Source: Planctomycetota bacterium
Lineage (GTDB): Bacteria; Planctomycetota; Phycisphaerae; Sedimentisphaerales; Anaerobacaceae
DNA length: 39,857 nt
NCBI GenBank assembly: GCA_020350405.1
Contig: CP070715.1
Location: 2,591,841 to 2,631,697 of the forward strand
Reading direction: 5' to 3'
In this document: in pieces, positions 5,583 through 34,328 of the stretch
Layout of the letters: every line of letters starts with the position of its first letter
How positions within the stretch are numbered: the stretch's first letter is position 1
Notes under the pieces: generated by a model
What the model saw: only the letters and a program-made list of their open reading frames with translations
Database searches by the model: none
What the model was told of the DNA's origin: nothing
Translations under genes and position numbers: made by a program

Positions 5583-6863
5583 TCACTTGATGGTTTTCGC
5601 GACTGGCTCATAAGCAATTTGAGTGCGCGAGCGTATTTTTTCCACGCGCTGCTCGAGTTCTGTCGCCTTTGCCACATTTCCCACCCTTTTATGCAGGTCG
5701 GCCAACGTCTCCAATACATCCGCCACGCTGGGGTGATTTCTGTCAAAAATGCGCTCCAGAGTCTTCAAAGCCCTTGTGCAGAGTTCCTGAGCTTGAGAGT
5801 ACCTACTCTGCTGCACATACAAGCTTGCGAGATTATTAAAGGCCATTGCCGTGCAATCATTATCCGGCCCGAGTGAGCTTTCGAGGACTTTCACTGCCTG
5901 CGTACAAGCCTGCTCGGCTCTTTGATATCTGCCCTGCGAAATATAGAGTGCCCCGAGCATACTCAATACTTTGCCGGTGAGCGGGTGGTCGGTTCCACGT
6001 TTGGCTTGCACTGCGGCCAGCGCTTTGTTAAGGAGCTTGCCAGCCTGGGCATAGTCGCTCTTTGCCCGGCAGATTATGGTCATTGTCAGCCAAGTGGGAG
6101 CTAAAAGATGGTGTTCGGGGCCGTAGATTTGTTCCTGCATAGCAAGAGCTCGATTAATCAAGACGTCGGCTTCAAAGTACCTGCCCTGCAGGGCGTACAG
6201 TCTGGCGACACCAGCAAGCACGCCTGCCGTGTAAAGGTGGTCCGGCCCATAGCTTTTGTTAATTAATTCAATTGCCTCGAGATAACAGCTTTCGGCTTCC
6301 GCATAATTACCTTGCGCGACCAGCAATTTGGCGGTATCTACCTGGAACGGCGCAATGATGGGGTCATCCTTCATGTAATTATGCTTCATGATGGCCAGGG
6401 CCCGGTCCAGAACAAGCTGAGCCCTTCGATATTTAGCCTGGTCTTGATAAGTCGAACCGAGGACCCGCAATGTGTACGCGACATAGGGATGGTCTTTATT
6501 GTAAACTTTTTCCTGCAGTTTCAAGCCTTGTTCACACATTTTTTCCGAGTCGGCAAGCTTGCCTTGATTTTTGTACAGGTAGCCCAGGTCGATGAGACAC
6601 AAACACAGTTCAGAGTCCGAGACGCCGGTTTTTCTTGCGAAGTCCAGTGCTCGTTCTGCAAGCGGCTGTGCCTTTTTGTAATCCCCACAGGCCATGTATA
6701 CCCTTGCCATTGCTCTTAGTGCCTGGCATGAGTAATCGCCTCTGACAGGGTTGGTTGTTCCCGCCGCGATATTCGGCCAAAATGGAGCTGAACCGCAGAT
6801 AACGAAGGCGAGAAGAATTACGATGCCGCACCGTCCGGGAAATTCGGTTCTTATTCGACGCAT
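5583..6863 (-). CDS. Exported tetratricopeptide-repeat protein (kinesin light chain-type TPR)
   Basis: The ATG at 6863 is preferred because AGGA lies 9 bases upstream; a GTG at 6881 in the same frame is less likely. The 426-residue product begins MRRIRTEFPG and then has one hydrophobic segment (IVILLAFVICG), a signal peptide or anchor. The rest is about nine TPR units of 42 residues with the pattern A-x3-Y-x2-A-x8-E and DHP linkers, the spacing seen in kinesin-light-chain-like bacterial TPR proteins. Such proteins are scaffolds for protein-protein contacts; no catalytic domain is present. It is convergent with the exported protein gene. The C-terminus ends in a basic stretch after the last TPR. 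Its partner cannot be told from the sequence. Confidence 0.85.
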   Translation of the reverse strand: MRRIRTEFPGRCGIVILLAFVICGSAPFWPNIAAGTTNPVRGDYSCQALRAMARVYMACGDYKKAQPLAERALDFARKTGVSDSELCLCLIDLGYLYKNQGKLADSEKMCEQGLKLQEKVYNKDHPYVAYTLRVLGSTYQDQAKYRRAQLVLDRALAIMKHNYMKDDPIIAPFQVDTAKLLVAQGNYAEAESCYLEAIELINKSYGPDHLYTAGVLAGVARLYALQGRYFEADVLINRALAMQEQIYGPEHHLLAPTWLTMTIICRAKSDYAQAGKLLNKALAAVQAKRGTDHPLTGKVLSMLGALYISQGRYQRAEQACTQAVKVLESSLGPDNDCTAMAFNNLASLYVQQSRYSQAQELCTRALKTLERIFDRNHPSVADVLETLADLHKRVGNVAKATELEQRVEKIRSRTQIAYEPVAKTIK

Positions 6864-7351
6864 TATAAAATTTCCTAACACTTACCTGTTGAAAAACATC
6901 ACCATTTAAGACCGCCGCTTCGGACCGACAGTAAAGCGGACGGGCTTTTGCGACTCCTGTGATAACCCTCCCTGCAACAGTCCACCCCGTTTTAGACACC
7001 GTTAACTTGGCGGTTGTAATAGGCATCCTCAGGTGGGATGAAGAGCCATACTCAATCCGTGCCAACAAGTCACACAATTTATGGTCGTAAAATTCCAGGC
7101 CCCACTTTAGTCGGAGTTTGGCCGTTTATCGGCCTTATGGCTGTTCGTGCGTTCGTCTCGAATGTAAGCAACTGTTACCCAATTCACAAAGCCGGTGATC
7201 TGAGGAAAAAATATGCTGTTGGCATTATCGGTCTAAATCGGATGACCTCGCGGAAGAATTTGCGGGAATGCTCTGGCGGTTAAGATTGCGCTGCGCAAGA
7301 CACTAGGGAGCCATCGATGGGACGGGTCGATGTTGGGAAGGGCTGCGGTTA
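6864..7351. other. Long intergenic region, no convincing gene
   Basis: About 490 bp. A plus-strand frame from 7038 to 7283 has no recognisable domain and no good ribosome site. A small hairpin (CATCGA/TCGATG, 7313-7333) lies just downstream of the thioredoxin gene, but no T-run follows on either strand. No clear promoter is seen. Confidence 0.5.
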
Positions 7352-8393: not shown

Positions 8394-9662
8394 TCAGCCG
8401 GGGGGCTGCTGGGGTTGCTGCTGGTCTATGACTTTTGCCGGGAGGATGACTTTGAATGTGCTGCCTTTGCCTATTTCTGACTCGATTTGGATTTCGGCAC
8501 AGTGCTGTTCTATGATTTGTTTGGCTATTGCCAGGCCCAGACCTGTGCCGAGTTTATTTTTGGAGGACTCAAAAGGCTGGAATATTTTTTCCTTGGCCTC
8601 TTCGCTGATGCCGGGTCCGTTGTCGGTTACGCTAAGCTGGACTGCGCTTTGCTCCTTGAGGTACTTGGTCTCGACTGATACAACGCCGGTTTTTTCGTCT
8701 ACTATGTCGATGGCATTCAGTATAAGGTTCGCGGCCATTTCGTGTATGCGCTCGCCATCCAGCTCGATGAGGGGAATTTGCTGGTCGATGCGGATATGTA
8801 GCTTGGTCTTTTTTTGTTTTAGTTGAGAGTTAAGCGACTCGATGGCGCCTTGTATTACAGCGTTGAATTCGCACGGCCCCAGTTCGAGGTGTCTTTCTCT
8901 GCTGAAGTCGAGCATATCGAGCATGAATTTCTTAACCCTCTCGAGGTTGGGTTTTAATATGCCCCAACTGCGTTTGACGCGATGAATCTCATTGGTCCGC
9001 AGGCCGAAATCTATGACCTCCGCGGCCCCGGAGACCAGCTGTATGATGTTCTTAACGGAATGTGAAATCTTCAAGGACACCTGTCCCGCATTTATCAGTC
9101 GCTGATTTCTATCTCTTTGCTGCTGTGCCCGGACAGCTTCCAAGGCCAGCTGTGTGTACCGGGCTACAAATCCCATGAGCTCTAAATTTTCTTCGTTCCA
9201 GTTGCACTGTTGCTGTGAGCTGTCCAGGTACATTACGCCGGCTGCTGTATGGGCTGCGTTCACTGGTGCGCACATAACTGCTTTGATATTGAATCTCTGA
9301 AGATTGGGGTCTCCCGCAAAGTCCCTGTTATTCATTGCATCGTCGAGCAAGATGGCTTTGTTGGTTTGAAGAACCTTTTCTATCACGGTATTGCTGAACG
9401 TATCGGCTGGTTCGCTTTGCTTGTCTTTGTGAACACTGGTGAAGAGTTCTAACTGGTCGGTATCATCACTTTTTAAGAGGATATACCCGTTGTCTGCGGA
9501 GAAGCGATCGGTAATGACATGGAGTGCCGTCTTTAGAGATTGCTGCTGGTTATCAACCGTCAGGTTCGACAGCGACAGAGTTTGCAGAAACTGAAGTGTC
9601 GCGTCCGCAGTTTGTCCCCGGCGAGTGCAAGTGGTCGGTAAATTGGAGCGCTCCTGTTCCAT
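8394..9662 (-). CDS. GAF-domain sensor histidine kinase
   Basis: This 422-residue soluble kinase has a GAF domain at about residues 40-180, which would bind a small ligand or a redox or light cofactor. A dimerisation/phosphoacceptor region has H201 in KISHSVKNI. The HATPase_c domain has an N box at N316 (NLILNAID), a G1 box DNGPGI (347-352) and a G2 box GTGLGLAIAK (372 onward). The histidine box lacks the usual HE-RTPL form, so it belongs to a less common HisKA-like class. No transmembrane helix is present, so sensing is cytoplasmic. The C-terminus is Gln/Pro-rich. No response regulator is adjacent; the nearest receivers are at 21348 and 23274. It is divergent from the secretion operon, with about 300 bp between, so a link to secretion control is possible but unproven. 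Confidence 0.9.
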   Translation of the reverse strand: MEQERSNLPTTCTRRGQTADATLQFLQTLSLSNLTVDNQQQSLKTALHVITDRFSADNGYILLKSDDTDQLELFTSVHKDKQSEPADTFSNTVIEKVLQTNKAILLDDAMNNRDFAGDPNLQRFNIKAVMCAPVNAAHTAAGVMYLDSSQQQCNWNEENLELMGFVARYTQLALEAVRAQQQRDRNQRLINAGQVSLKISHSVKNIIQLVSGAAEVIDFGLRTNEIHRVKRSWGILKPNLERVKKFMLDMLDFSRERHLELGPCEFNAVIQGAIESLNSQLKQKKTKLHIRIDQQIPLIELDGERIHEMAANLILNAIDIVDEKTGVVSVETKYLKEQSAVQLSVTDNGPGISEEAKEKIFQPFESSKNKLGTGLGLAIAKQIIEQHCAEIQIESEIGKGSTFKVILPAKVIDQQQPQQPPG

Positions 9663-9970
9663 AGTGCTTACAGTCTGCTTAAGTTTAGGTTACCTTCGGC
9701 AACCAATCCTGCCAGCAAATTTGGGATCTCTGTTTATAGTAAAATATCGTGTCCTGATTGTTATCGAGTGTTTCAAGTGCGGACTTAACTGGTCTTTACC
9801 TTATTTTATGCCATTTGGGCACCGAAGACGGCTGTTTATGTATTATCGGCCTTTTTGCTTATGCGAGTCTTGTTCAAGGGGCTGCTTGTTTGCATCGGTT
9901 AAGTTAACTCGCCCAGATGCCGATACGAGTGCCAAAAATGCAGTTTGGCTTTTTGGGGACAGTTCCTTTA

Positions 9971-11671
9971 ATGCAGGATGATGATAATATACTCTCATTT
10001 CTTGCCAAGGAAAACATCCTCGGTGAGGATGTTCTGCAAGGTGTAGTCGAGAAGCGGCAAGATACCGGACGGAGCGTAATCGACATACTCAAAGGGGATG
10101 AGCTTGTCGGTGAAGATGCGCTTAACAAAATCATTTTGTTCAGTAGCGGAATCGAGTTTGTAACGCTTTCCCCGGAGATGGTAGATCCGATGGCGGCGCA
10201 GATGGTTTCTTACGAGACCGTCAACAAGCATAATCTGATTCCCGTCAGGAAGGACGGTAACAAACTTTACGTTGCGATGGCATCTCCTCTGAATTTAGCG
10301 GTTCGTGACCAGATTGAAGCGAAGACGGGCTGCCAGGTTGTGCCGCTTTATGCGACCGGCAGCGCGATAAGACAAACGATAATGTATCACTTCAATGTTG
10401 GCAACGTCACCCGGCAGGACATAGTTTCGCTGCGACTGAAGCAATCGCCGTCTGAGAGGTCACCTGAGGCCAGGGGAAAATTTAAATCGTCAAATGTTGC
10501 CGATGCCCCCGTTACAAGGCTTGTCTCTTCAATAATCAACGGTGCTATAGACGCCAGAGCCAGCGACATTCATATTGAGCCGCAGGAGTATGATGTCAGG
10601 GTGCGCTACAGGGTCGACGGTATTCTGCATGACGCGATAGAGATTCCCTCTTCAGTTCAGCAGGGAGTCATCTCGCATATTAAAATCCTTACGGATATGG
10701 ATATCTCAGAGCACAGGATGCCGCAGGATGGGCATCTGACTGTGCAGTTTCATGGTAAAGAATACGACTTGAGGGTATCGTCACTTCCGTCTGTGGGGGG
10801 AGAAAAGATAGTCATGAGAATTCTGGACAAGAGTGCAGGACTCTGGGCCTTTGACGATATAGTCACTTCAGGCGCCGATAACAAAAAACTCAAAGAGCTG
10901 ATAAGCAATCCGTACGGAATGATATTGCTAACCGGTCCCACGGGCAGCGGCAAAACCACTACGCTATATTCAGTTTTGCAGAGTTTAAACAGCCCGGAGA
11001 AAAATATTGTCACGGTTGAGGACCCCGTCGAGTATCGCCTGAACGGGGTCACGCAGGTTCAGGTAAATCCGGTTGCGGGGATGACCTTTGCCAACGGGCT
11101 GCGAAGTATAGTAAGGCAGGACCCCGACATTATTTTTGTGGGTGAAATTCGAGACCTTGAGACGGCAGAAATCGCGATAAGCGCGGCTCTGACGGGCCAT
11201 CTTGTTCTTAGCACGCTGCACACAAATGACGCCGTCGGCGCGGTGTCACGTCTGGTCAACCTTGGGATACAGCCATTTTTGGTTGCTTCCGCACTGTTGG
11301 GAGCTGTGGCCCAAAGGCTTGTGCGGACCTGCTGTGACAAGTGCAAAGAGACGTACGAACCGTCACAGGAAGAACTTAAGATTTTGCGGGACCTGCCAAA
11401 TAAGAACCAAGACATTAAACTTCGCCGCTGCAAGGGGTGTAACACCTGCTATCATACGGGTTATTACGGAAGAAAGGCCATCTATGAGATACTGAGCATC
11501 ACGCCTGAAATAAGGAGGATGATTGTTGCAGGCTGCGGTGACGATGAAATCAGGACACAGGCGGGCAAGGAAGGAATGAGGACTTTGAGGGAAAGCGGCG
11601 TGGAGGAAGTACTCGCCGGTGCCACGACGCTCGAGGAACTACCTCGCGTCGTGGATATGGAGCAGAGATAA
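9971..11671 (+). CDS. gspE: Type II secretion/type IV pilus assembly ATPase GspE (PilB-like)
   Basis: This hexameric cytoplasmic ATPase powers pseudopilus assembly. The 566-residue form starts at the ATG at 9971, whose MQDDDNILSFL start resembles family N-termini and which has GGGGA upstream; the frame stays open to an ATG at 9917. The N-terminal T2SSE_N-like domain covers about 1-150. Walker A is GPTGSGKT at 322-329, the Asp box region is RYRVDGILHD, Walker B is DPDIIFVGEIRD (E392) and the His box is GHLVLSTLHTNDA. A tetracysteine-type metal site is visible as C454, C455 and C458 plus C487, C490 and C493; this insert is typical of GspE. It is the first gene of the operon, and its stop overlaps the gspF start (TAATG). 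Length and motifs are complete. Confidence 0.96.
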   Translation: MQDDDNILSFLAKENILGEDVLQGVVEKRQDTGRSVIDILKGDELVGEDALNKIILFSSGIEFVTLSPEMVDPMAAQMVSYETVNKHNLIPVRKDGNKLYVAMASPLNLAVRDQIEAKTGCQVVPLYATGSAIRQTIMYHFNVGNVTRQDIVSLRLKQSPSERSPEARGKFKSSNVADAPVTRLVSSIINGAIDARASDIHIEPQEYDVRVRYRVDGILHDAIEIPSSVQQGVISHIKILTDMDISEHRMPQDGHLTVQFHGKEYDLRVSSLPSVGGEKIVMRILDKSAGLWAFDDIVTSGADNKKLKELISNPYGMILLTGPTGSGKTTTLYSVLQSLNSPEKNIVTVEDPVEYRLNGVTQVQVNPVAGMTFANGLRSIVRQDPDIIFVGEIRDLETAEIAISAALTGHLVLSTLHTNDAVGAVSRLVNLGIQPFLVASALLGAVAQRLVRTCCDKCKETYEPSQEELKILRDLPNKNQDIKLRRCKGCNTCYHTGYYGRKAIYEILSITPEIRRMIVAGCGDDEIRTQAGKEGMRTLRESGVEEVLAGATTLEELPRVVDMEQR

Positions 11672-12867
11672 TGGCGGTGTTTGAATACAAAGCAAGGGAT
11701 GAGGAGGGAAACATATTTTCGGGGGTGTACAACGACATTGATAGCCTTGCTGCGCTGCGGGAGGAGCTGGGAAGACTGGGCTACGCTCTTGTCAAAGCTC
11801 GCCGCAAAAAGGCCTTGCGCGGCGACAAGCGCAAGATTAAGCGGAGCGAGGTTGTCAGCTTTGCCCACCGATTCGCCGGTATGTGCTCTGCCGGGTTGTC
11901 GATAGACAGATGCTTACAGGTTTTGGAGGAACAAACGGAAAATCCGCCGCTAAGAGGCAGAATCGCCGATGTCAGACAGCATGTTGAGACCGGTTCAACC
12001 CTAAGGGAAGCTTTTGGCAAATACAAGGACGTATTTTCTGATTTCTTTCTGGGCATGGTTGAGGCGGGCGAGTCCGGAGGCAAACTGTCGCACACACTGG
12101 AGCTGGCCGCGGTCTATATGGAGAAACAGAATGATTTGCGGAGGCAGGTAAAATCAGCTTTCGCGTATCCGGTTGTCGTCGGCGTTATGTGCCTTCTGAT
12201 TGTAATCTACCTAATCATATTTGTTATTCCGGTATTTTCCAAGGTATACCAGCAGCTGCATGTTAACCTGCCCGGTCCGACACAGGCCCTGTTAAGTCTT
12301 AGTGTGTTGTTCAGGGAATGCTGGATGTTTCTTTTGGTTATGGCTTTTGGGTGTGTAATATTGGGGCGCAAACTTTCGAAGAATCCCAGAATATGTGTGA
12401 GGTGGGATGCTTTCAAGCTTGATATGCCCGTTTTCGGAAAACTCAACAAGATGTTGGTACTGTCACGTTTCATTCGAACTTTTGCAATGCTGGCTTCGGC
12501 AGGCGTTTCGTATATTGACTCCCTTGAGATTGCAGGCGTGGTCGCGAATAACCACACAGTCAAGAACATCGGCGCCAAGCTGCAGGAAAGACTCGAGACG
12601 GGAAGCACAGTTACCGAGGCGATGGGTGACCATGAGATTTTCCCGCCAATGGTTATACAGCTTGCCTCTGCGGGGGAGGAGGCGGGGGTGCTGCCTGAGA
12701 TGCTCAACAAAGGGGTGGATTTTCTGGACAAGGATATAGGCAGAAGCATCAACGCCTTGCTTGTGAAGCTTGAACCGACACTGACGCTTGTTATGGGTAC
12801 GGTAGTCGGCTTTATCCTGGTGGGCGTGTATCTGCCTCTATTTGACTATATGGCTCATCTGAAATGA
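11671..12867 (+). CDS. gspF: Inner-membrane platform protein GspF (PilC-like)
   Basis: The start ATG overlaps the gspE stop by one base, indicating translational coupling. The 398-residue product has two T2SSF domains (about 65-190 and 268-390), each with the family pattern FAHRFAGMCSAGLSI and FIRTFAMLASAGVSY. There are three membrane segments (around 170-190, 215-235 and 365-390) and the conserved AGE motifs (EAGESGGKL, SAGEEAGVLPEML). GspF anchors the ATPase to the membrane and organises pseudopilin addition. The length is normal for the family. A 4-base ATGA overlap at its stop could start a tiny downstream reading frame, described separately. Confidence 0.96.
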   Translation: MAVFEYKARDEEGNIFSGVYNDIDSLAALREELGRLGYALVKARRKKALRGDKRKIKRSEVVSFAHRFAGMCSAGLSIDRCLQVLEEQTENPPLRGRIADVRQHVETGSTLREAFGKYKDVFSDFFLGMVEAGESGGKLSHTLELAAVYMEKQNDLRRQVKSAFAYPVVVGVMCLLIVIYLIIFVIPVFSKVYQQLHVNLPGPTQALLSLSVLFRECWMFLLVMAFGCVILGRKLSKNPRICVRWDAFKLDMPVFGKLNKMLVLSRFIRTFAMLASAGVSYIDSLEIAGVVANNHTVKNIGAKLQERLETGSTVTEAMGDHEIFPPMVIQLASAGEEAGVLPEMLNKGVDFLDKDIGRSINALLVKLEPTLTLVMGTVVGFILVGVYLPLFDYMAHLK

Positions 12868-13266
12868 CTTCCGAAGGGCAGAAGCGTCATTTATCGGAAC
12901 TAAAGGACAAGAGCAAGTTAGCGCTGATTAAAGGATTTACCTTACGGCCATGGAAAATATTGACATTTTTTTTTGTTATTTTGAAAAATGGGGTATATTT
13001 TATGTATAGGGTGGGTAGTTAGGGTGCCAGTCGGAGATGTTCCAAGTGCGTTGTTTGAACTGCTTTTAAGAAAAACCAATGGGGACAGATGAGCAAAGTA
13101 GCTTATGTTGTCCCGCGCAGGGACTTTTCGGACTTTTGTTTAAGATGTGCAAAGGAAAGAATAAAAAGTACTTATCGGAACTAAAAAAAGAAAAGTGACT
13201 CGTTAATTATGTCGATAACTGGTTTTGGGTTTTGAGAATTTAACTCTTTATCGAGAGGAACTTAAG
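12868..13266 (+). other. Gap between gspF and gspG with two tiny reading frames sharing a 14-bp repeat
   Basis: About 400 bp. TTATCGGAACTAAA occurs exactly at 12891-12904 and 13172-13185. Both copies fall in the same phase of two small open frames. The first (12864-13022, 52 codons) has an ATGA overlap with the gspF stop and encodes HLSELK. The second (13079-13198, 39 codons) encodes YLSELKKEK at its end. Neither has a family match that I recognise or a good ribosome site, so they may be chance. The AT-rich stretch 12955-13010 could hold a promoter for gspG, but no well-spaced pair of boxes is obvious. Confidence 0.35.
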
Positions 13267-13584
13267 ATGGTGAGAAAAAAGAAAGGTTTCACGCTTGTTG
13301 AGCTGCTGATTGTGGTGTTGATTCTGGCGGCGCTGGCGGCGATTGCGGTCCCGAGAATAGGCGCGAGCGCGTCGAATGCCAAGCGAAAGGCCTGTGATAC
13401 AAACATTGATATTATGAATGGCCAGATCGAGCTGTACACAGCCAATGAGGGCTCGCCTCCTGCGGTGCTAGGGGACGTTACCAACGACCCAAACTATTTC
13501 CCGGATGGTGCTCCAGTGTGCCCCTTTGACGCCAGCGCGTATGTTCTGGGTGCCAACGGGCACGTTACGGCGCATGCCCACTAA
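13267..13584 (+). CDS. gspG: Major pseudopilin GspG-like protein
   Basis: The ATG at 13267 follows GAGAGG by 8 bases; upstream in-frame codons are not needed. This 105-residue prepilin has the leader MVRKKKG and the processing site G^FTLVELL with Glu at +5. A hydrophobic helix (IVVLILAALAAIAVP) and a small globular domain ending in PVCPFDASAYVLG follow, with the disulfide-type Cys pair usual for GspG-like pseudopilins. It forms the shaft of the pseudopilus. It is followed by an operon-internal terminator, which would allow the major subunit to be made in excess over the minor ones. The prepilin peptidase needed to process it is not in the window. Confidence 0.93.
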   Translation: MVRKKKGFTLVELLIVVLILAALAAIAVPRIGASASNAKRKACDTNIDIMNGQIELYTANEGSPPAVLGDVTNDPNYFPDGAPVCPFDASAYVLGANGHVTAHAH

Positions 13585-13727: not shown

Positions 13728-13749
13728 TGTATTGAAGGCGGTAGCTACG

Positions 13750-14205
13750 ATGAGGCATAGAAGGGCATTTAGCTTAGCCGAGCTGGTTCTGATTGTTCTG
13801 ATTCTGGCTGTAATGGCAGTCGTTGCGGTGCCAAAGATGCAGTTTGCCACCTTGCGGCGGCAGAAGGCCGACGCGGCGGCGAGGAAGATTGCGACCGATT
13901 TGAAGCTGACCCGCCGACTGGCTGTCTGCAATGCTGCTGTAAACGTAGACGGTTACGGCCTGTGGATGCAAGGCGGCCCGCCGTATACGCAGTACAGGAT
14001 AAGGAACCTTGCAACAATGGAATCAATAGACTTACGGGACATTGACCCAGACGTTTCCTGCACGGGCGGCAGTAGGTTCGAGTTCGGGCCCTTGGGTAAT
14101 CTGTTGGCCGGAAGCGACAGCCTGCTGACAGTCTCGGCTGAGGGCACAAGTTTTACCATAACCGTCGTTTCCGCAACCGGTGCGGTAAAGTGTATTGATA
14201 ACTGA
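13750..14205 (+). CDS. gspH: Minor pseudopilin, GspH/FimT-like
   Basis: The ATG at 13750 has GAAGG upstream; a TTG at 13732 in frame is less likely and lies only 5 bp after the terminator T-run. The 151-residue product has the leader MRHRRA and the processing site A^FSLAELV with Glu at +5. It continues with a long hydrophobic helix and a globular domain (QKADAAARKIATDLKLTRRLAV) that resembles the GspH/FimT family. The Ala before the cleavage site, instead of the usual Gly, is tolerated in known prepilins. It probably belongs to the pseudopilus tip. The assignment to H rests on position and on the helix-following region, so it is tentative. Confidence 0.8.
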   Translation: MRHRRAFSLAELVLIVLILAVMAVVAVPKMQFATLRRQKADAAARKIATDLKLTRRLAVCNAAVNVDGYGLWMQGGPPYTQYRIRNLATMESIDLRDIDPDVSCTGGSRFEFGPLGNLLAGSDSLLTVSAEGTSFTITVVSATGAVKCIDN

Positions 14206-14207
14206 TT

Positions 14208-14612
14208 ATGGTTGCAAAAGCCGTAAAAAGCAAAGCGCATAAAGGATTTACCCTTACGGAGGTCCTGGTGGCGGCGATGCTGCTGACCCTCGTGATGGTT
14301 CCGATTCTTAAGGGCCTGACCAGTGCGCACTCGCTGGATATCAAGATTGAGCGCAGGATGCGGAGTTTGACACTCGCCGAAGCCAAACTCGAGGACATCA
14401 GAGGCAGGTCAATCTACAACTACGGTCTTGATTTTAATGACCCATCGTCGTCCATAGACGGTGCGTATCTTTGCAGGGTGGTTGATACGTCTGCCGGGGT
14501 GGATTTGCGGTCGATTTTGGTTTCCGTAGGCTATGACGAAAACGGCAACGGTGCGCTGGAGGGCGGTGAAGTGGAGGTCACTCTCAAGACGCTTGTCGCT
14601 AAAAGGTGGTAG
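14208..14612 (+). CDS. gspI: Minor pseudopilin, GspI/PilV-like
   Basis: It starts 2 bp after the previous stop. The 134-residue protein has a basic leader (MVAKAVKSKAHKG) and the processing site G^FTLTEVLVA with Glu at +5. The hydrophobic helix and the sequence LTLAEAKLEDIRG, which is like the AMTLAENKLEEL region of GspI/PilV proteins, follow. A Ca-binding-like Asp/Asn loop (YDENGNGALEGGE) lies near the C-terminus. The product would pair with the H-, J- and K-like proteins at the pseudopilus tip. Family membership is clear; the precise letter is inferred from order. Confidence 0.8.
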   Translation: MVAKAVKSKAHKGFTLTEVLVAAMLLTLVMVPILKGLTSAHSLDIKIERRMRSLTLAEAKLEDIRGRSIYNYGLDFNDPSSSIDGAYLCRVVDTSAGVDLRSILVSVGYDENGNGALEGGEVEVTLKTLVAKRW

Positions 14613-14710: not shown

Positions 14711-16372
14711 GTGTATTGGCAAAAAAGAAACAGGGAACGGTTTGGGATGACGCTTGTTGAGATACTGGTGGCGATGGCTATCATAGTAATAGTTTTTGCC
14801 GCTATTGTGCCTCAGATACGGGCCATTCAGAACAGCTGGGGTTCAAAGAGGAAGACGGTTGAAGCCATCCAGAACGGCCGGGTGTTGATGGACCATGTTA
14901 CCTTTAATTTAACACAGGCCAACAAGGTAACAGCCGTAAGTGACTCTACCGAGATAACCGGCTACATCGAGTTCGAGGACAATGACAGCAATACGATGCG
15001 ATACGAAGTCGGCGCGGGCAATCTTGTCCAGTTCGGCCCTGTGGGCAGTCTTTCGGAATTAGCCGGGCCGGTAAGTCAACTGCAATTTGCCTGTTACGAT
15101 GCCTGCGACCTGGATACGCCTATAACAGACGTAAATCAGATTCGCAGCGTGAAGGTCCAATCGACATTTACCAACGCGGCTGCCTTGGGCAGGGACCAGG
15201 GCTTTACCGCCCAGGCATACCTGCGTACCAATGCGTTAGGTGCCGGTGCCGGTGAGACTGTAACGGAAGAGCCGGGCGCCGAGTTTGAATTCGATATAGG
15301 TAACGGGCAGAATCCCGTATTGTCCCGGATAGACGCCGGCCATCATCTCTGCGTTTACAAAGGATTCGGAGGAGCCGCCGGGAAGGGCCAGGCAGTGGTT
15401 TTAATCGTAGATACTGGTAACTGGACGATTAGTGCGGGACCGGCATTTACTTTCGACACAAAGGGCTGTGGGGGACCGGATCTGAAGCGTATCGACGCCA
15501 TAAATTATCTCTGTGTTTATCAAGGCGACAAACAGGATGGCTATGCCGTAATACTGACCGTCAATCCTGCCACGTGGACCGTTAGTATGGGAACACCTCT
15601 TGAGTTTGACACACAGGATTGCGGTGGCCCTCGTCTTAGTCAGATAGACTCAGATGATTATCTTTGTGTCTACAGTGGACGCGACGGCGACGGCTTTGCG
15701 GTTGTTTTAACGGTGGATACTGTGACAGGAACAGTCACCAACGGGGCGGCCTTTGAATTTGATACAGATGATTTTGGCTCTGGTACCGTTTCTAACATAG
15801 ACGGTGTTCATCATCTTTGTGCGTATGGGAAGATGAGTTCCGGCGGCTGGGCTGTTGTTCTTACCGCGGATGCCGTTACCAAGACCGTTACGCAGGAAGG
15901 AACAGCCTTTCAGTTTGACATCCAGCAGGCCATGCAGAATGAGCTGTACAGGATAGATGAGAATCACCACCTCTGCGGCTACAGGGGCTGGGGAGAATCA
16001 GGTCAGGCTTTCATAATGACCGTAGATACCAGTACGTGGGCCATCGGAAAAGGAGCCACGATACTATATGACACGTCTGCCAAACCTCAGAGTGAACACC
16101 CTGCTTTCGCATGGATAACCGGGGACGATTATCTGCTTGCATATACAGGTACTCTTCAAAGCGAAAGTGATATAGGTAAGGCCGTGGTGTTAACTGTGGA
16201 CACACAGACGGACTCCGTTACCACAGGCACCGGCCTTGTCCATGACGACAAGGAGGGAATGGCTCCTGATTTATCGAAGGTGGATGATTCGCATTTCCTC
16301 TGTGCTTACGAAGGCGAAAGGGACGACGGCTTCGCGACCATATTGACGATTGGTGCGCCGATACGGCCGTGA
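14711..16372 (+). CDS. GspJ-like pseudopilin fused to seven beta repeats (possible beta-propeller)
   Basis: The start is the GTG at 14711, 10 bases after AAGGAG; the open frame reaches back into the previous gene but that would bury the prepilin leader. The 553-residue product has the leader VYWQKRNRERFG and the site G^MTLVEILVAM. A helix and a GspJ/PulJ-like domain follow to about residue 185 (AIQNGRVLMDHVTFNLTQANKV). Residues 191-553 are seven consecutive repeats of about 51-58 residues with the pattern F-FDT-(loop)-L-ID--HHLCVY-G---G-AVVLTVD--T-TV--G. Repeats start at 15281, 15446, 15599, 15752, 15908, 16061 and 16235. Ordinary GspJ is about 200 residues, so the repeats are an added domain. 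Seven units of this size suggest a seven-bladed beta-propeller at the pseudopilus tip, as inference. Confidence 0.85.
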   Translation: MYWQKRNRERFGMTLVEILVAMAIIVIVFAAIVPQIRAIQNSWGSKRKTVEAIQNGRVLMDHVTFNLTQANKVTAVSDSTEITGYIEFEDNDSNTMRYEVGAGNLVQFGPVGSLSELAGPVSQLQFACYDACDLDTPITDVNQIRSVKVQSTFTNAAALGRDQGFTAQAYLRTNALGAGAGETVTEEPGAEFEFDIGNGQNPVLSRIDAGHHLCVYKGFGGAAGKGQAVVLIVDTGNWTISAGPAFTFDTKGCGGPDLKRIDAINYLCVYQGDKQDGYAVILTVNPATWTVSMGTPLEFDTQDCGGPRLSQIDSDDYLCVYSGRDGDGFAVVLTVDTVTGTVTNGAAFEFDTDDFGSGTVSNIDGVHHLCAYGKMSSGGWAVVLTADAVTKTVTQEGTAFQFDIQQAMQNELYRIDENHHLCGYRGWGESGQAFIMTVDTSTWAIGKGATILYDTSAKPQSEHPAFAWITGDDYLLAYTGTLQSESDIGKAVVLTVDTQTDSVTTGTGLVHDDKEGMAPDLSKVDDSHFLCAYEGERDDGFATILTIGAPIRP

Positions 16373-16692
16373 GATTTTCGGGAAGGCGGATGGTGTTTTT
16401 TAGGAGATTCATCGGCGGAACTTTCTTTGGGTTATGGGACGGGGGAGTCTGGGTGCTTTCGCCAGCGCGGTTTATATGTTTTGGGCCCGATAAGAGTAAG
16501 TTTAGCCGGCAGCGGGTCTGATTTTATGCGAAGTTCTTTTAAAAACCCGTTTAGCGCAAAATACTTGAGTTATTAGGCAACTCGGCCTCTATGGTGAACG
16601 ATATTATCAATATCGTAGCTGCCGGGATATGGTGATGATACAGGGGGAACCAGGTGGAGTATCGGAAAACTGATAGCAGGCGAGGAAAGCCG
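16373..16692 (+). other. Intergenic region with a 19-bp palindrome
   Basis: About 320 bp separate the J-like and K-like genes in an otherwise tight operon. ACGATATT-ATC-AATATCGT (16598-16616) is a perfect inverted repeat, an operator-like site, 76 bp before the next start. A 43-codon frame (16390-16521) has no recognisable feature. No terminator is seen. Confidence 0.5.
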
Positions 16693-17127
16693 ATGATAGA
16701 CCTGTTGCACAGGCTGGTATCGCGAAAAAAGGGTTCTGTGCTGGTAATGAGCGTATTCGTGATAGCGCTGGTGTCAGCGCTGGTGATAGGTATTTTACAG
16801 ATAAATATGTCTGAAATCCGGCTTACGCAGCACAGGGTTTACGCATCGCAGGCCAGGGCACTTGCTGAGGCGGGTCTTAATGCCGCCCTGGCCGAGATTC
16901 GCTGGGACCGTACCTGGACGAAAGGTTTTCAGAATAAGATAATGTCAGGCGAGGAGAAATTTGGCGGTGGAGATTATGACGTGGATGTCAACAGCGACAA
17001 TCTGACGATATCGGCAGCTGTTACTTCGTGGCAGGGCTATACTTCCACTATTGAGGCCCAAATCACGGTAAGTGACGGTAACAGCCCTTACATAATCAGA
17101 ATAGACAATCTGAAGGTCAACGAATAG
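16693..17127 (+). CDS. GspK/PilX-like minor pseudopilin, short
   Basis: The ATG at 16693 follows GAGG by 7 bases; a GTG at 16654 in frame is an alternative. The 144-residue protein has RKKG^SVLVMSVFVIALVSALVIG, the GspK/PilX N-terminal type that lacks Glu at +5. The family segment SEIRLTQHRVYASQARALAEAGLNAALAEI follows as a long helix. GspK proteins are usually around 300 residues, so this one has only a small globular part, closer to PilX. In secretion systems the K subunit caps the tip together with I and J. It stands 11 bp ahead of the PilM-PilN fusion gene. Confidence 0.8.
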   Translation: MIDLLHRLVSRKKGSVLVMSVFVIALVSALVIGILQINMSEIRLTQHRVYASQARALAEAGLNAALAEIRWDRTWTKGFQNKIMSGEEKFGGGDYDVDVNSDNLTISAAVTSWQGYTSTIEAQITVSDGNSPYIIRIDNLKVNE

Positions 17128-17138
17128 GCCGGATAAGT

Positions 17139-18713
17139 ATGGAACGATTACGAATACTTGCCAAGACATCGCTGGATGCGCTTAACAAAGCATCGCTGAA
17201 TGTGCTCAGCAGGACATCGGTGGGCGTGTATATCTTAGATGAAAGGATTGAGCTGGCGTTGCTCAGGCAGACCAAAGACGGCGTCACATTGGTCGAAGCG
17301 GCAAGTGAGTCCATCCCGCCGGGTGTGGTTAGTAACGGCAGCGTCAAAGACCCGGCCATACTGACAAAAGCGATTAAAACATTGAGTAATCGCTGCAAGA
17401 TAGGCGCAAAACGAACTGCAGTTTCGTTGTTTGCCCGACCCATGCTTACACAGATTATGGACCTGCCGGAGGATTTACCGTCCAATGTAGGGCAGTACGT
17501 GCGCAAAGAGGTAAAACACTGTGCGGTGCTACCTTCCCGAAACATATCGCTGGACTATTGCGGCGTGTCGTCTCTATCACAGCCGGCAGGGAAGCGAGTT
17601 TTTGTCGTTGCGGCGGAAAACGAAAAGGTCCTTACGCTGATTAAGGCGCTGAATGATGCGGGTTTAAATGTCGAGTCTGTTGAGCCGGCCGAGGTTGCCT
17701 GTGCCAGAGCGCTTTACGAGAAAAAGATAGCAGGAAGCTCCAATTCCAACGTCCTCATTGCCCTCGTGGATGGTGCCGATATAACCCTGAGCGTCTTTCA
17801 GAACCAGAATTTGGATTTTATCCGCAGGAGGAATGTCACCGAAGATGTCTGTCAATCCGAAGAAGGGCTTGTTCGTTTTATGGAGGAAATAGGCGCCATT
17901 ATCCAGTACTACGATGTGGAAATTGGTGAGAAATCGGACAGCTGGCGGTTGATTACGGTCCTGCGTCGCGGCTGCGAGCGCGCGGGTGAAATTGCCGATT
18001 TACTGCGAAGTAAATTTGGCAGTTTGGAGTTAGATGTAATTTCAGAGGCAGATGCAGGTGAGAATACGCCTGTCGTTACGGGTTCTGATGCGCCGGCGGC
18101 TTCGCTTGTCGCAACCGGTTTAGCTATGGGATTAATGAAGGTACCGCAGCCGAAGGTGAAAATAAATCTCATGCCCCCCGAAAGTGCTGATGTTAAGGCC
18201 GTAAAAAAGTACGCTTTGATAACGGCCAACATCGCCGCAGCGGTCCTGATTGTCATGATATTGGCTGTAGGAGTGTTAAGTGCAATCCTGAACAGGACGA
18301 ACGAGACAATTGTGCGGCTAAAGCAAGAAGAGCCGGTTATGGGCACGAGAGCCCTTTTGGTTGAGCAACAGAAGATATCTGAACAGGCAGAAGAGCTTCG
18401 CGAAAAGCTTAACAAGATAAACGAGATTCTGCATTCGGAGCACTGCGGCGAGTGGCACCAGATTCTTGAGGATATCAGGCGCAGAACTCCGCAGTCGCTT
18501 TGGATTACCAATCTGTCCGGCGAGGACAGCTCAAAGATAGTAATAAAGGGACGTTCAACTTCATACGAATCGGTCCATGTTTTCGTGGATATGCTTGGCG
18601 AAAGCGAGTACATGGCCTCCGCTGCTCTGGTCGAGGCGGAAAAGGACGAATCTGTCGAGGGATTAGTTTCATACTGGATTGACTGCTCCCTGACGACTTT
18701 TGAAGGCACATAA
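17139..18713 (+). CDS. PilM-PilN fusion (GspL-like) assembly protein
   Basis: This 524-residue protein joins two proteins that are separate in most type IV pilus systems. Residues about 25-335 are a PilM-like actin fold (SVGVYILDERIELALL, ALFARPM-like segment, LIALVDGADITLSVF). At about 341 the PilN hallmark INLMPPES appears. A transmembrane helix (about 355-380), a coiled coil (EEPVMGTRALLVEQQK) and a periplasmic ferredoxin-like PilN domain (ILEDIRRRTPQSLWITNL) follow. In type II systems GspL has the same overall plan, binding the GspE ATPase on the inside and GspM on the outside. The next gene, 3 bp away, is the PilO/GspM partner. The first 24 residues, with repeated SL/AL segments, are an unusual short extension. 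Confidence 0.88.
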   Translation: MERLRILAKTSLDALNKASLNVLSRTSVGVYILDERIELALLRQTKDGVTLVEAASESIPPGVVSNGSVKDPAILTKAIKTLSNRCKIGAKRTAVSLFARPMLTQIMDLPEDLPSNVGQYVRKEVKHCAVLPSRNISLDYCGVSSLSQPAGKRVFVVAAENEKVLTLIKALNDAGLNVESVEPAEVACARALYEKKIAGSSNSNVLIALVDGADITLSVFQNQNLDFIRRRNVTEDVCQSEEGLVRFMEEIGAIIQYYDVEIGEKSDSWRLITVLRRGCERAGEIADLLRSKFGSLELDVISEADAGENTPVVTGSDAPAASLVATGLAMGLMKVPQPKVKINLMPPESADVKAVKKYALITANIAAAVLIVMILAVGVLSAILNRTNETIVRLKQEEPVMGTRALLVEQQKISEQAEELREKLNKINEILHSEHCGEWHQILEDIRRRTPQSLWITNLSGEDSSKIVIKGRSTSYESVHVFVDMLGESEYMASAALVEAEKDESVEGLVSYWIDCSLTTFEGT

Positions 18714-18716
18714 CCT

Positions 18717-19319
18717 ATGTTGATGAATGCACTTGCAAAATCGAGTCGGTCATCAAGGATTGCGTTTTCGGCCGCGATAGTCATTATTGTGGCCGTAGCG
18801 GCATATAACTGGATGGTTGCGCCGCATACCAAATATTTACATGCCGCGCAGGAGTATGAGCTTATGATGGGGGACATGGCGAGAAAAAATAAAATCATCA
18901 AAACAAAGGAGGCGATAAAAAGGAAAGAGGTTGAGAATCTGCGGGCTGAACTGGCCGGTGTTCAGAGCGCGGTATTTACTCCTTATGAGGCGAGAAGATT
19001 CTTCAGTGATATTGAAGCTGTTTGTAATGCAGCCAGCTGCCTTGTTTATTCGATAAACTTTCTTTCGGGTAATTTGGCTGGTGTTGCGGCTTCCGTCGAG
19101 AGCGACAGCCAGATCGTCGAGAATAGCGCGGTTGTTAGTTTTGTGGGCTCTTATGGCAACATTATAAGTTTTCTCTCGAAAGTAACGAACCGACCCCAAA
19201 AGGTGGTTGTCCGTTCGCTCAAGATAACTGCCTTTGGTGAGAAACCCGATCCGTTGGAGTGTGAGATGGTGGTAACAATTTACACAGTTCGTGACAGGGA
19301 GATTTTCGCAAATGAATAA
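18717..19319 (+). CDS. PilO/GspM-like assembly protein
   Basis: It starts 3 bp after the PilM-PilN stop; a second ATG two codons later could also serve. The 200-residue protein has a short cytoplasmic tail and one transmembrane helix (about 17-33, AFSAAIVIIVAVAAYNW). A helical coiled-coil stretch (ARKNKIIKTKEAIKRKEVENL) and a ferredoxin-like domain ending in EMVVTIYTV follow, the PilO architecture. It would form the periplasmic collar with the PilN half of its neighbour. Sequence conservation in this family is low, so the call rests on topology, size and position. Its stop overlaps the secretin start. Confidence 0.75.
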   Translation: MLMNALAKSSRSSRIAFSAAIVIIVAVAAYNWMVAPHTKYLHAAQEYELMMGDMARKNKIIKTKEAIKRKEVENLRAELAGVQSAVFTPYEARRFFSDIEAVCNAASCLVYSINFLSGNLAGVAASVESDSQIVENSAVVSFVGSYGNIISFLSKVTNRPQKVVVRSLKITAFGEKPDPLECEMVVTIYTVRDREIFANE

Positions 19320-20577
19320 TTTGTTATGTCTGAAGATGCTGCTGTGTTGTGTACTTGCGACCACTTCATTCCAGCATGAGTATACACAGGCAGAACCCGG
19401 GGAAACAGAAAGCACGGCTCTGGAGGCGGTCGGACGTGAGAACCCGTTTGAGGAGGTGGGCTCTGAAAAGAGAAAATCGCTGTTTGAACGGGTATTTAGG
19501 TCTGAAAGGCCCGTAGAACCTGCCCCTGAGCTTTTTGTACAGACCGTTACGCTCAAGTTCCTTGACGCCAAGAACCTCAAAGCCGCACTTGAAAATATGC
19601 TGTCGGGGTACGGAACTATTGCGGTCGACGCGAAAAGTAACACGCTGATTATTTCGGATAATAAGGAAAATTTGGAAAGAATCATCAAACAGGTGCGAGA
19701 GGCAGACAGGACCCCTCGCCAGATTGTCGTAGAGGTAGTCATTGTCGACGTTCAGCTTGAAGATGATACTCAGATAGGGGTTAACTGGGACATACTTTCT
19801 GATGAGTTTTATGATATAAGTTACAGGCAGAATTTTACGGACAGGATGGGCTCGACAATTGATTCAGCCGCAAATATAGGAAATGCTACGGCGTTTAATA
19901 CCACCGGAATCGGCGGTGATTTTGCGCTTATCAGCGGCACCGTTCGGAATGTTGTGCACTTGCTGCAGCAGAAAACGAATCTTGAGATACTTGCCAGTCC
20001 GAAGGTTATGGTTGTAAGCGGCCGAAAAGCGGAGATAAGGGCAGTAGATGAAATACCTTTTAACGAGCTTATACAAACATCTGAAGGCGGCCAGTTGTCA
20101 GCAACTTCCTTTAAAGATGTCGGCGTTACCCTGAAGGTTACGGCGACACTGACAGAGGATAATGAAATCTTTTTGCAGGTGGATACCGAACAAAAGGTCG
20201 AGACGGGGGCCAGTGAAACAGGCGTGCCGGTGGTGGACGCAAGGATAGCCAACACTTCACTTTTGCTTGAGGACGGGCAAGTAGTCGCTATAGGAGGGCT
20301 TCGTCGAAGGGTAACAACCGAGAGTGTGGACCAGATTCCGTTCCTTGGAGACCTGCCAATTGTTGGATTTCTGTTCCGCAACACGAGAACTGTTGAAGTA
20401 AATTCGGAGCTGGTTGTGTTTTTATCGCCGCGTATCTATAAGGGTGAGCCTCTGACACAAGAGCAGATGAGCAAGTTTAATGAGCTTAAGGGCTATCCTC
20501 TGCTGCAAATACGCAGACCACGTAAGAAGGACTTACTTCCGCTGGTGGAAATGCTGGACGATGCTAACGATAAATGA
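19312..20577 (+). CDS. gspD: Secretin GspD/PilQ-like, short form
   Basis: The ATG at 19312 overlaps the end of the previous gene, with GGGAG 10 bases upstream. The 421-residue protein has a signal peptide (to about residue 27) and a linker. A single secretin N-type domain (about 72-150, VTLKFLDAKNLKAALENMLSG) and the secretin core with the signature VPVVDARIANTSLLLEDGQVVAIGG...IPFLGDLPIVGFLF...ELVVFLSPRI complete it. Classical GspD has N0 to N3 and about 650 residues, so this one lacks most of the periplasmic vestibule. The tail after the core is short and basic (RRPRKKD). It would form the outer-membrane gate of the system encoded upstream. No pilotin gene is seen. Confidence 0.92.
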   Translation: MNNLLCLKMLLCCVLATTSFQHEYTQAEPGETESTALEAVGRENPFEEVGSEKRKSLFERVFRSERPVEPAPELFVQTVTLKFLDAKNLKAALENMLSGYGTIAVDAKSNTLIISDNKENLERIIKQVREADRTPRQIVVEVVIVDVQLEDDTQIGVNWDILSDEFYDISYRQNFTDRMGSTIDSAANIGNATAFNTTGIGGDFALISGTVRNVVHLLQQKTNLEILASPKVMVVSGRKAEIRAVDEIPFNELIQTSEGGQLSATSFKDVGVTLKVTATLTEDNEIFLQVDTEQKVETGASETGVPVVDARIANTSLLLEDGQVVAIGGLRRRVTTESVDQIPFLGDLPIVGFLFRNTRTVEVNSELVVFLSPRIYKGEPLTQEQMSKFNELKGYPLLQIRRPRKKDLLPLVEMLDDANDK

Positions 20578-29976: not shown

Positions 29977-30726
29977 ATGATAAAGGATAACTTGCCAGAT
30001 GCCGGCGTTGATTCAAGGGGGCAAGTTGCTATTTCTGTCAGCATTTTCTTTCCCTGCTATAACGAACAAGACAATGTCGGCCACGTTGTGGAACAGGCAC
30101 TTGCCGTGCTAAAGAAGCTGAATGTGGACTTTGAAGTAATCATCGTTGACGACGGCAGTTCCGATGCTACCGGCCGAATCGCTGATGAAATCTCGCGCCG
30201 GGATGACAGTATAAAAGTGGTTCACCATCCCACTAATCTTGGTTATGGCGCTGCCCTGCAATCCGGCTTTAAAGCAGCTACCAAAGAACTTGTCTTTTAT
30301 ACTGATGGTGACGGTCAGTTCGATATCAACGAAATGCCACCTTTGCTGCCTCTGATGACGGAGTATGATGTTGTTAGTTGCTATCGACTGAACCGTCGGG
30401 ACCCCCTTATACGCAAGGTGAACGGCTGGTGCTGGACAAAATTGGTTTGTCTGCTGTTTGGTATGGAAATCCGAGATATTGACTGTGCTTTTAAGTTATA
30501 CAAAAGAGAAATTTTTGACAACATTAAGTTGACAAGCACCGGTGCTTTGATTGATACTGAAATCTTGGCGCGAGCTATCCGCAGGGGCTATCGCATCGCT
30601 CAGAAAGGTGTGCACCATTATCCACGAACCGCCGGCGCACAGACCGGCGCCAACTTAAGGGTAATATATCGCGCGTTCAAGGAGCTGTTTAGACTCCGCA
30701 GTCAAATCCGAAGCGAGAAATGGTAA
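29977..30726 (+). CDS. Family 2 glycosyltransferase, polyprenyl-phosphate sugar synthase type
   Basis: It starts 3 bp after the membrane protein, so the two are an operon. The 249-residue enzyme has a GT-A fold: FFPCYNEQDNVGHVV, VIIVDDGSSDATG (nucleotide-sugar binding), and the metal site YTDGDGQFD. The acceptor-side motif DIDCAFKLYKRE follows, in a single domain without C-terminal membrane helices. This matches the dolichol/undecaprenyl-phosphate mannose or glucose synthase group. The probable product is a lipid-linked sugar used by the neighbouring GT-C-like protein for envelope glycosylation. The sugar identity cannot be read from the sequence. Confidence 0.9.
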   Translation: MIKDNLPDAGVDSRGQVAISVSIFFPCYNEQDNVGHVVEQALAVLKKLNVDFEVIIVDDGSSDATGRIADEISRRDDSIKVVHHPTNLGYGAALQSGFKAATKELVFYTDGDGQFDINEMPPLLPLMTEYDVVSCYRLNRRDPLIRKVNGWCWTKLVCLLFGMEIRDIDCAFKLYKREIFDNIKLTSTGALIDTEILARAIRRGYRIAQKGVHHYPRTAGAQTGANLRVIYRAFKELFRLRSQIRSEKW

Positions 30727-33290: not shown

Positions 33291-34328
33291 ATGTCGGAAG
33301 ATTTCAAAAACATCCTTTTAATCAAGCCGAGCTCGCTGGGTGATGTGGTGCAGGCTTTGCCGGCACTTTCTGCCTTGCACAGGAGTTTTCCTGCCGCCAA
33401 GATTAGCTGGCTCATTCGACCGGAGTTTGCAGAACTTGTTGAAAATCATCCTCATTTGACCGAGACAATCCTTTTTGACCGCAAGTTCCTCGGTAAGGCC
33501 TGGTTCCATCCACACGCATTGTTTTGCCTGCTGTCACTTATTCGGCAACTTCGCCGTAGTCAATTCGATCTCGTAATCGACTTACAAGGTCTTTTCAGAA
33601 CCGCTTGCTTGGGCTGGCTCTCTGGCTGCAAAAAGCGCTTTGGAATGACCAACGCCAGAGAATTCGCTCATATCTTTTACACGCATAAAACCCGGCGGGA
33701 CCAGAATTCAATTCACGTGGTCGATTACTACTTGAAGATAGTGCGGGCTGTGGGTGCTTTCGAGATAGAAGTCCAATTTTTGTTGCCGGTTAGCTCCAAC
33801 GCTGCCGATTCGGTCAACAAGCTGCTGGAGAGTCATGACATCAAACCTGACAACTATGCGGTTTTTGTGCCGGCTTCTGCGCACAAGTCAAAGTGTTGGC
33901 CGGCTTGCAATTTTGCCTCTTTGGCAGAAAAGATGGCGGCAAAGTTTGGGCTTTCAATCATTTTAGTTGGTACAGAGCCTGAGAGGCTTATCACCGAAGA
34001 GATTGTATCGGCCTCAAATTTCAAGGTGACGAATTTTACGAGCTTGACGACTCTGCCCGAACTGGTGGCTTTGTTTAATGGAGCGAGGGTTGTGGTGAGC
34101 AATGATACCGGCCCGGGACATATAGCGGCAGCCCTGGGCGTACCACTGGTCATGATTTTTGGGCCGTCAAATCCGATAAGACTTTTTCCGTATGGCAGAG
34201 CCGAAACGCTGGTAGCTGTCGACCCTTTCGGACGCGGGCTAGGATTGCAGAGCACCGATCCCGCCCATGCGATAGAGGCTATAACCGTCGATGAGGTTTA
34301 CAGAAAGGTGTGTGAGCAGATAAGTTAG
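33291..34328 (+). CDS. Family 9 glycosyltransferase (heptosyltransferase-like)
   Basis: The 345-residue protein has the two-domain GT-B layout of ADP-heptose:LPS heptosyltransferases. The N-terminal part has ILLIKPSSLGDVVQALPAL and FDLVIDLQGLFRTA. The C-terminal donor-binding half has FVPASAHKSKCWP and VVSNDTGPGHIAAALGVPLVMIFGPSNP. The enzyme adds heptose or a related sugar to the lipopolysaccharide inner core at the cytoplasmic face. With the GT2/GT-C pair upstream it points to envelope polysaccharide synthesis. It is divergent from the NUDIX gene and convergent with ileS, whose stop is only 19 bp away. Confidence 0.93.
   Translation: MSEDFKNILLIKPSSLGDVVQALPALSALHRSFPAAKISWLIRPEFAELVENHPHLTETILFDRKFLGKAWFHPHALFCLLSLIRQLRRSQFDLVIDLQGLFRTACLGWLSGCKKRFGMTNAREFAHIFYTHKTRRDQNSIHVVDYYLKIVRAVGAFEIEVQFLLPVSSNAADSVNKLLESHDIKPDNYAVFVPASAHKSKCWPACNFASLAEKMAAKFGLSIILVGTEPERLITEEIVSASNFKVTNFTSLTTLPELVALFNGARVVVSNDTGPGHIAAALGVPLVMIFGPSNPIRLFPYGRAETLVAVDPFGRGLGLQSTDPAHAIEAITVDEVYRKVCEQIS

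Follow-up and report, generated by a model that had tools for sequence, protein, structure and literature searches.

A pilin stem joined to a predicted seven-bladed beta-propeller in the J slot of a planctomycete pseudopilin operon

INTRODUCTION

Modular pilins are already known, as described in parts of PMC8179133, and the propeller-headed pseudopilin presented here is a variant among them. In S. sanguinis, the vWA head of PilB binds host proteins and the lectin head of PilC binds glycans, according to those portions of PMC8179133 and PMC9934059 that are drawn on here. Within the planctomycetes, dextran-gold has been observed on the pili-like fibres of two other members of the phylum, and the receptor is not named in the relevant portion of that report (PMC5394234). 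Among open-licence PMC main texts, no paper was recognised that deals with a pseudopilin bearing a propeller or with modular pilins of planctomycetes; such proteins may sit in the dataset of PMC8179133.

The window studied here is a stretch of 39,857 nucleotides from a Planctomycetota bacterium of the order Sedimentisphaerales (contig CP070715.1), and all positions are those of this stretch. It contains a pseudopilin gene whose stem, predicted propeller, operon position, head exchange and tail conservation were computed here. The reading that we favour, with a probability of roughly 0.6, is that the product is a modular minor pseudopilin whose propeller is displayed at the filament tip as a ligand-binding head, probably for glycans.

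THE OPERON AND ITS MACHINE TYPE

The gene and its parts are listed here with the other genes of the operon (positions, strand, feature and basis of the assignment).

9917-11671, +, assembly ATPase, GspE/PilB-like (family model matches)
11671-12867, +, inner-membrane platform, GspF/PilC-like (family model matches)
13225-13584, +, major pseudopilin, G-like (family model matches)
13732-14205, +, minor pseudopilin, H-like (weak match)
14208-14612, +, minor pseudopilin, I-like (by position)
14711-16372, +, modular J-slot pseudopilin, whole gene (GTG start, TGA stop)
14711-14746, +, class III signal peptide (leader of about 12 residues that ends RFG, then MTLVE; N_methyl above cut-off)
14732-15241, +, pilin stem, long helix then beta sheet, conserved in the order (alignment, model, stem search)
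15257-16357, +, predicted seven-bladed beta-propeller head, residues 183-549 (AlphaFold2 model, fold matches, seven motifs)
16361-16369, +, C-terminal tail Ile-Arg-Pro, i.e. hydrophobic-x-Pro (kept across unrelated heads)
16654-17127, +, minor pseudopilin, K/PilX-like, short at 157 aa (family model match)
17139-18713, +, PilM and PilN regions in one 524-aa protein (PilM_2 at 29-232, PilN at 441-517)
18717-19319, +, PilO/GspM-like (weak match)
19291-20577, +, secretin, 428 aa (family model matches)

The GspK match of the K-like protein spans residues 26-86 only. PilM and PilN are fused in one protein, which we take to be the GspL arrangement, and the PilO of the operon is presumably GspM-like. 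The curated cut-offs of the type II secretion system (T2SS) models are not reached (GspE 562 of 630 bits, GspD 193 of 351 bits) and the type IV pilus (T4P) models for E and D likewise score below theirs, which leaves the choice between T2SS and T4P undecided for this operon. No PilT was seen within the window operon; in the rest of the genome there are four PilT-level ATPases outside it, and the genome holds seven secretin regions including the one in the operon. With PilM and PilN in one protein and no PilT of its own, the operon looks as T2SS-like as T4P-like, and if it is a T2SS the filament may stay periplasmic.

Near the operon lie a TPR protein (5583-6881, -), a GAF histidine kinase (8394-9662, -) and two glycosyltransferases (29977-30726 and 33291-34328). 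The K proteins of the operon (e.g. that at 16654-17127) have a common C-terminal end, IRIDxLRINE or close variants of it.

THE PSEUDOPILIN AND ITS STEM

The frame at 14711-16372 translates into 553 residues with no internal stop; AAGGAG is found about 8 bases upstream of its GTG start, and the frame is open from 14606. The product consists of a pilin stem, from residue 1 to about 180, and then seven repeats. A prepilin site lies in its N-terminus, between RFG and MTLVE, and Pfam N_methyl (PF07963) passes its cut-off (23.3 bits against 21.2), which upholds the sequence-only reading of the first 185 residues as a pseudopilin with a prepilin cleavage site. The accompanying label, GspJ-like, stood in part: it agrees with the gene order, between I and K, but no gspJ or T2SSJ family model matches the product at E up to 1. 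Neither model is among the families matched by 25 stems at 0.01, and the GspJ identity of the product rests on operon position only.

A profile of the stem finds the family in 75 of the 161 genomes of the order at 1e-15; many of the 86 genomes without a match at that threshold are incomplete. In a sample of 392 genomes from across the phylum, most of the stem is matched only in the genome of the window and in three more genomes of its order, and 39 more genomes match mainly the N-terminal helix region. Removal of duplicates left 84 stem genes, around which the conserved operon order is E-F-G-H-I-J-K-PilMN-PilO-secretin. I stands directly before and K directly after the stem gene in 70 of the 84 (other J copies being skipped), which supports the placing of the protein as a minor pilin in the J position; a complete E-F-G-H-I accompanies 62 of these 70 genes and a complete K-MN-O-D 61. 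Of the other 14, seven are cut by a contig end and show one neighbour, three stand alone in CP070830, a genome of the window's genus, two are the chimeras, which share a 10.9-kb contig, and the last two lie outside the operon slot in genome G061. CP070830, a single contig scored only 59% complete, has three extra propeller pseudopilins (L039, L040 and L041) with no operon genes nearby, besides the operon copy.

THE PREDICTED PROPELLER

When the product is compared with itself beyond residue 185, the mean BLOSUM62 self-score is 0.51 at lag 51 and about -1 at most other lags. The motif ID..(Y)LC.Y occurs seven times, at residues 207, 261, 312, 363, 415, 469 and 524, with successive spacings of 54, 51, 51, 52, 54 and 55; seven head-to-tail repeats had been proposed, and these motifs recover them at 51-55 residues, slightly tighter than the 51-58 first given. 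Since the longest exact DNA repeat inside 14711-16372 is only 11 bases, these repeats are old and diverged. A cysteine (LC.Y) is seen in nearly every blade (15323-16330) of a protein that is expected outside the cytoplasm.

A single-sequence AlphaFold2 model of the product was discarded (mean pLDDT 35.3). With an input alignment of 25 related rows, 16 of them propeller-bearing, the model reached a mean pLDDT of 88.1 and a pTM of 0.68, with the propeller blocks mostly above 90: helix and sheet take up residues 3-170, the linker at 173-180 is of low confidence and the propeller runs from 183, whilst the last three residues fall below 50, so that the C-terminal tail has no confident placement. 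The head is thereby predicted to be a closed seven-bladed beta-propeller with four-stranded blades. Foldseek and VIA-align 2 group the modelled head with seven-bladed propellers, the top matches being the Photorhabdus PLL/PHL lectins (Z up to 29.8, rmsd 3.1, 317 aligned residues, 8% identity); WD40 proteins come next at Z of about 28, roughly 2 Z units or less below, so the lead of the lectins over unrelated propellers in these model comparisons is small, nearly a tie, and likeness of fold to lectins alone shows no function. At the level of the model and its fold matches, the closed propeller deduced from seven blades is borne out, and the predicted structure is a propeller and not a solenoid.

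Blade number is nearly constant among relatives. In 14 sequences, including that of the window, a blade-by-blade alignment gives seven blades each, and among 19 propeller genes free of other domains, 18 extend 359-379 residues beyond the stem, which corresponds to seven blades. The remaining gene (L049/L067) has 312 residues, or six near-identical blades; because blades 2-5 share 88-93% DNA identity, an assembly collapse is possible. Two giant relatives, 1,185 and 1,192 residues long and in tandem in one genome (L042, G045 contig 318, 2212-5787 and 6909-10463), carry LamG and GDLL domains after the third blade and before the other four, one of these four in the second giant being missed by the motif scan yet plain in the sequence; in another genome of the same genus, a frame cut by a contig end runs from the last part of a GDLL domain through four blades to the tail. 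Three plus four blades around inserted domains is an arrangement that a closed seven-bladed ring permits. The wide variation in repeat number that would have spoken against a closed ring is thus not seen, as one gene of 19 has six blades and the chimeras keep seven (3+4).

RELATIVES OF THE PROPELLER

Against the sequences of the PDB, the whole protein found only N-terminal similarity to geopilin and an antibody chain, and the sole entry found by the propeller profile was an unrelated antibody chain, which leaves room for distant kinship. Pfam searches of the propellers returned Inhibitor_I36 (in 11 of 14 members), BT_3657-like_N and VirJ, which were put down to short repeated motifs. Inhibitor_I36 reached 1.7e-17 in one member; in the window's own propeller all three families score below their curated cut-offs, with no single stretch passing. 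Judged by sequence, the propeller appears to be without a convincing relative among solved chains or Pfam models, and none was found in phage and plasmid records. Outside the order, 391 other genomes of the phylum gave one weak propeller match (9e-9), to a different-looking repeat protein without the stem.

Within the order, the propeller is found in 19 of 161 genomes, from the three family groups f1, f3 and f7. It is private to the stem there: 23 of the 24 propeller frames carry it, and a contig end truncates the remaining one. A search for the same fusion in other planctomycetes had been suggested, and it has been answered by these 23 frames.

HEAD EXCHANGE IN THE J SLOT

The 84 stem genes fall into 15 head states, counted as follows (GDLL, YDYS, WGRN and VVGN are labels coined here for unnamed heads).

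Propeller 21, GDLL+LamG 13, LamG 9, DUF7305 8, YDYS 6, none 6
VVGN 5, GDLL 3, CBM96+DUF7305 3, LTD 3, WGRN 2, chimeras 2, singletons 3

Pfam matches in the 52 non-propeller heads include Laminin_G_3 (21), DUF7305 (10), Laminin_G_2 (7), CBM96 (3), LTD (3) and one each of CBM9, CBM3 and GH115_C, plus others. Among the J-slot heads of relatives that these matches assign to a known family, lectin-like and carbohydrate-binding ones are frequent; DUF7305 (10 of 52), LTD (3) and others without a named family are outside the recognised carbohydrate-binding families. In one clade (L172, L177, L087, L088 and L183) the VVGN head in the J slot has a sequence unlike the beta-rich heads.

On a tree of the E and F motor proteins, in which the window operon is represented only by its same-genus relative L038, at least 28 head swaps are needed among 58 operons, three operons without a readable head having been left out; shuffled labels need a mean of 42.1 and at least 36. 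The count was 31 with those three operons and compound labels kept, and 28 after cleaning. Collapsed forks entered the count as hard polytomies, and for this reason the values at raised thresholds are no minimum across every possible resolution. Fewer changes than in shuffled data, and yet many, indicate that heads are passed down but frequently altered. Scored simply as propeller or not, the heads give 11 changes on the motor tree, with a shuffled mean of 11.0, and since the 12 propeller operons are unclustered on it, gain and loss of the propeller are indistinguishable. In these 12, head distances correlate with stem distances at r 0.80, and with motor distances at r 0.57. We read this as an old propeller that has been displaced repeatedly; repeated transfer of stem and head together is a possible alternative.

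Tandem J genes with differing heads, namely LamG, GDLL and WGRN in L078 and propeller and LamG+GDLL in L072, point to exchange at close range. In L078 (7376-11153), three J genes with three head kinds stand in one operon. As far as their sequences tell, the J slot carries some ten unrelated exchangeable modules, and the propeller is one of them, not an isolated fusion.

THE C-TERMINAL TAIL

A hydrophobic-x-Pro end is found in each of the 21 propeller genes that can be read to the C-terminus, in 31 of 52 genes with other heads and in none of six head-less genes, and at least eight kinds of head bear it. It occurs in 11 of 551 neighbour genes other than K. K proteins, which have such an end in 12 of 67, were excluded from this background because their ends are mostly INP variants of their own IRIDxLRINE end; counting them as well would bring the background to 23 of 618. 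These tail counts exclude contig-cut and N-containing frames; 22 propeller rows are 21 distinct genes, as L131 duplicates L043, and of seven head-less rows one is a fragment. At this end of the genes, each of the four proline codons and each of the three stop codons occurs, so the tail is conserved in the protein and not in the DNA. Some clades lack it (VVGN, LTD and the DUF7305 clade of genus g38).

HOW THE HEAD MAY WORK

In the reading that we favour, prepilin peptidase would remove the leader, and the stem would join the I-J-K-type minor pilins that start the filament, leaving the propeller to project as a bulky head from the filament tip or close to it. As E and F lengthened the G filament, the head would be pushed towards or through the secretin, where it could be exposed outside the outer membrane. 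There it would bind a ligand, most likely a glycan or a glycan-covered surface, and through this binding the machine would capture a substrate or attach the cell. A glycan or surface ligand is favoured over exoprotein cargo because the J-slot heads of relatives are so often of lectin-like or carbohydrate-binding families. Over evolution the slot would be exchangeable, the head being replaced between a stem and a hydrophobic-x-Pro tail that are kept. A bolder proposal, which we hold tentatively and think doubtful, makes the J slot of the order a dedicated head-exchange socket: unrelated folds would be swapped between stem and tail, several heads could be held in tandem, and the tail might latch a partner in the tip complex or be read by the machine. 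If this is true, the cell retunes what its filament grips, probably polysaccharides.

The idea first raised from the sequence was that the head serves as a periplasmic cargo receptor or piston of a T2SS, recognising exoproteins and pushing them through the secretin. We think this less probable than a ligand-binding tip, perhaps one chance in four; as T2SS or T4P status is unsettled, it is nevertheless a serious rival. It would suit the T2SS-like make-up of the operon, in which a 524-aa protein unites PilM and PilN, the secretin is short and no PilT was seen, and a variable head could track variable cargo. That known-family heads in the slot are mostly lectin-like or carbohydrate-binding tells against it, not decisively, as secreted enzymes can carry such domains.

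A mainly structural head, acting as a cap or plug in the secretin or as an assembly primer with binding secondary, seems to us unlikely. The K-like protein is short (157 aa), which makes J the bulkiest tip candidate, and PilY1 and minor pilins prime T4aP in the account given in part of PMC7541494; a single mechanical role is ill-suited to the frequent replacement of the head by unrelated ones of about 150 to 800 residues, and to the head-less J genes (6 of 84). Even less credible is a chance fusion or an annotation or assembly artefact without function: the relatives are mostly metagenome bins, but the window's genome is a single contig and the propeller recurs as diverged intact frames in 19 of the order's 161 genomes, from three family groups.

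COMPARISON WITH KNOWN SYSTEMS

The T2SS minor pseudopilin GspJ resembles the protein in its operon position between I and K; the protein described here differs from it in matching neither J-family model and in its large C-terminal head. The PilC/PilY1 tip adhesins (PF05567 beta-propeller) offer a likeness of another kind, in that minor pilins present a propeller, which occurs in nature paired with variable modules, according to the pertinent part of PMC8179133; in the present protein, pilin and propeller form one covalent chain, and PF05567 is absent from the Pfam matches of the product at E up to 1. To the Photorhabdus PLL/PHL seven-bladed fucose lectins the modelled head is alike in fold (Z 29.8, rmsd 3.1 over 317 residues), and the comparison is by fold only, at 8% identity and with no PDB sequence-profile match; PLL and PHL are not pilins. 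The propeller and J-slot family is also a candidate for the kind of receptor behind the dextran-binding fibres of planctomycetes, from another group of the phylum.

The modular type IV pilins are alike in having a class III signal peptide, a small pilin stem, a short linker and a C-terminal module, in those parts of PMC8179133 and PMC9934059 that describe them, and in the exchange of modules across species, including a PF13385 lectin module, in the corresponding part of PMC8179133. A separate non-pilin module after the pilin module, by which such pilins are defined, is present in our model (linker 173-180, propeller from 183). The present case differs from that of S. sanguinis in belonging to a diderm planctomycete with a T2SS-like operon, in its seven-bladed propeller family without a convincing Pfam match, and in the repeated exchange of heads within one orthologous slot with a common hydrophobic-x-Pro tail. 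With many heads on a single orthologous filament subunit, the family lends itself to comparison, through which the relation of head to ligand and the role of both fixed ends can be tested.
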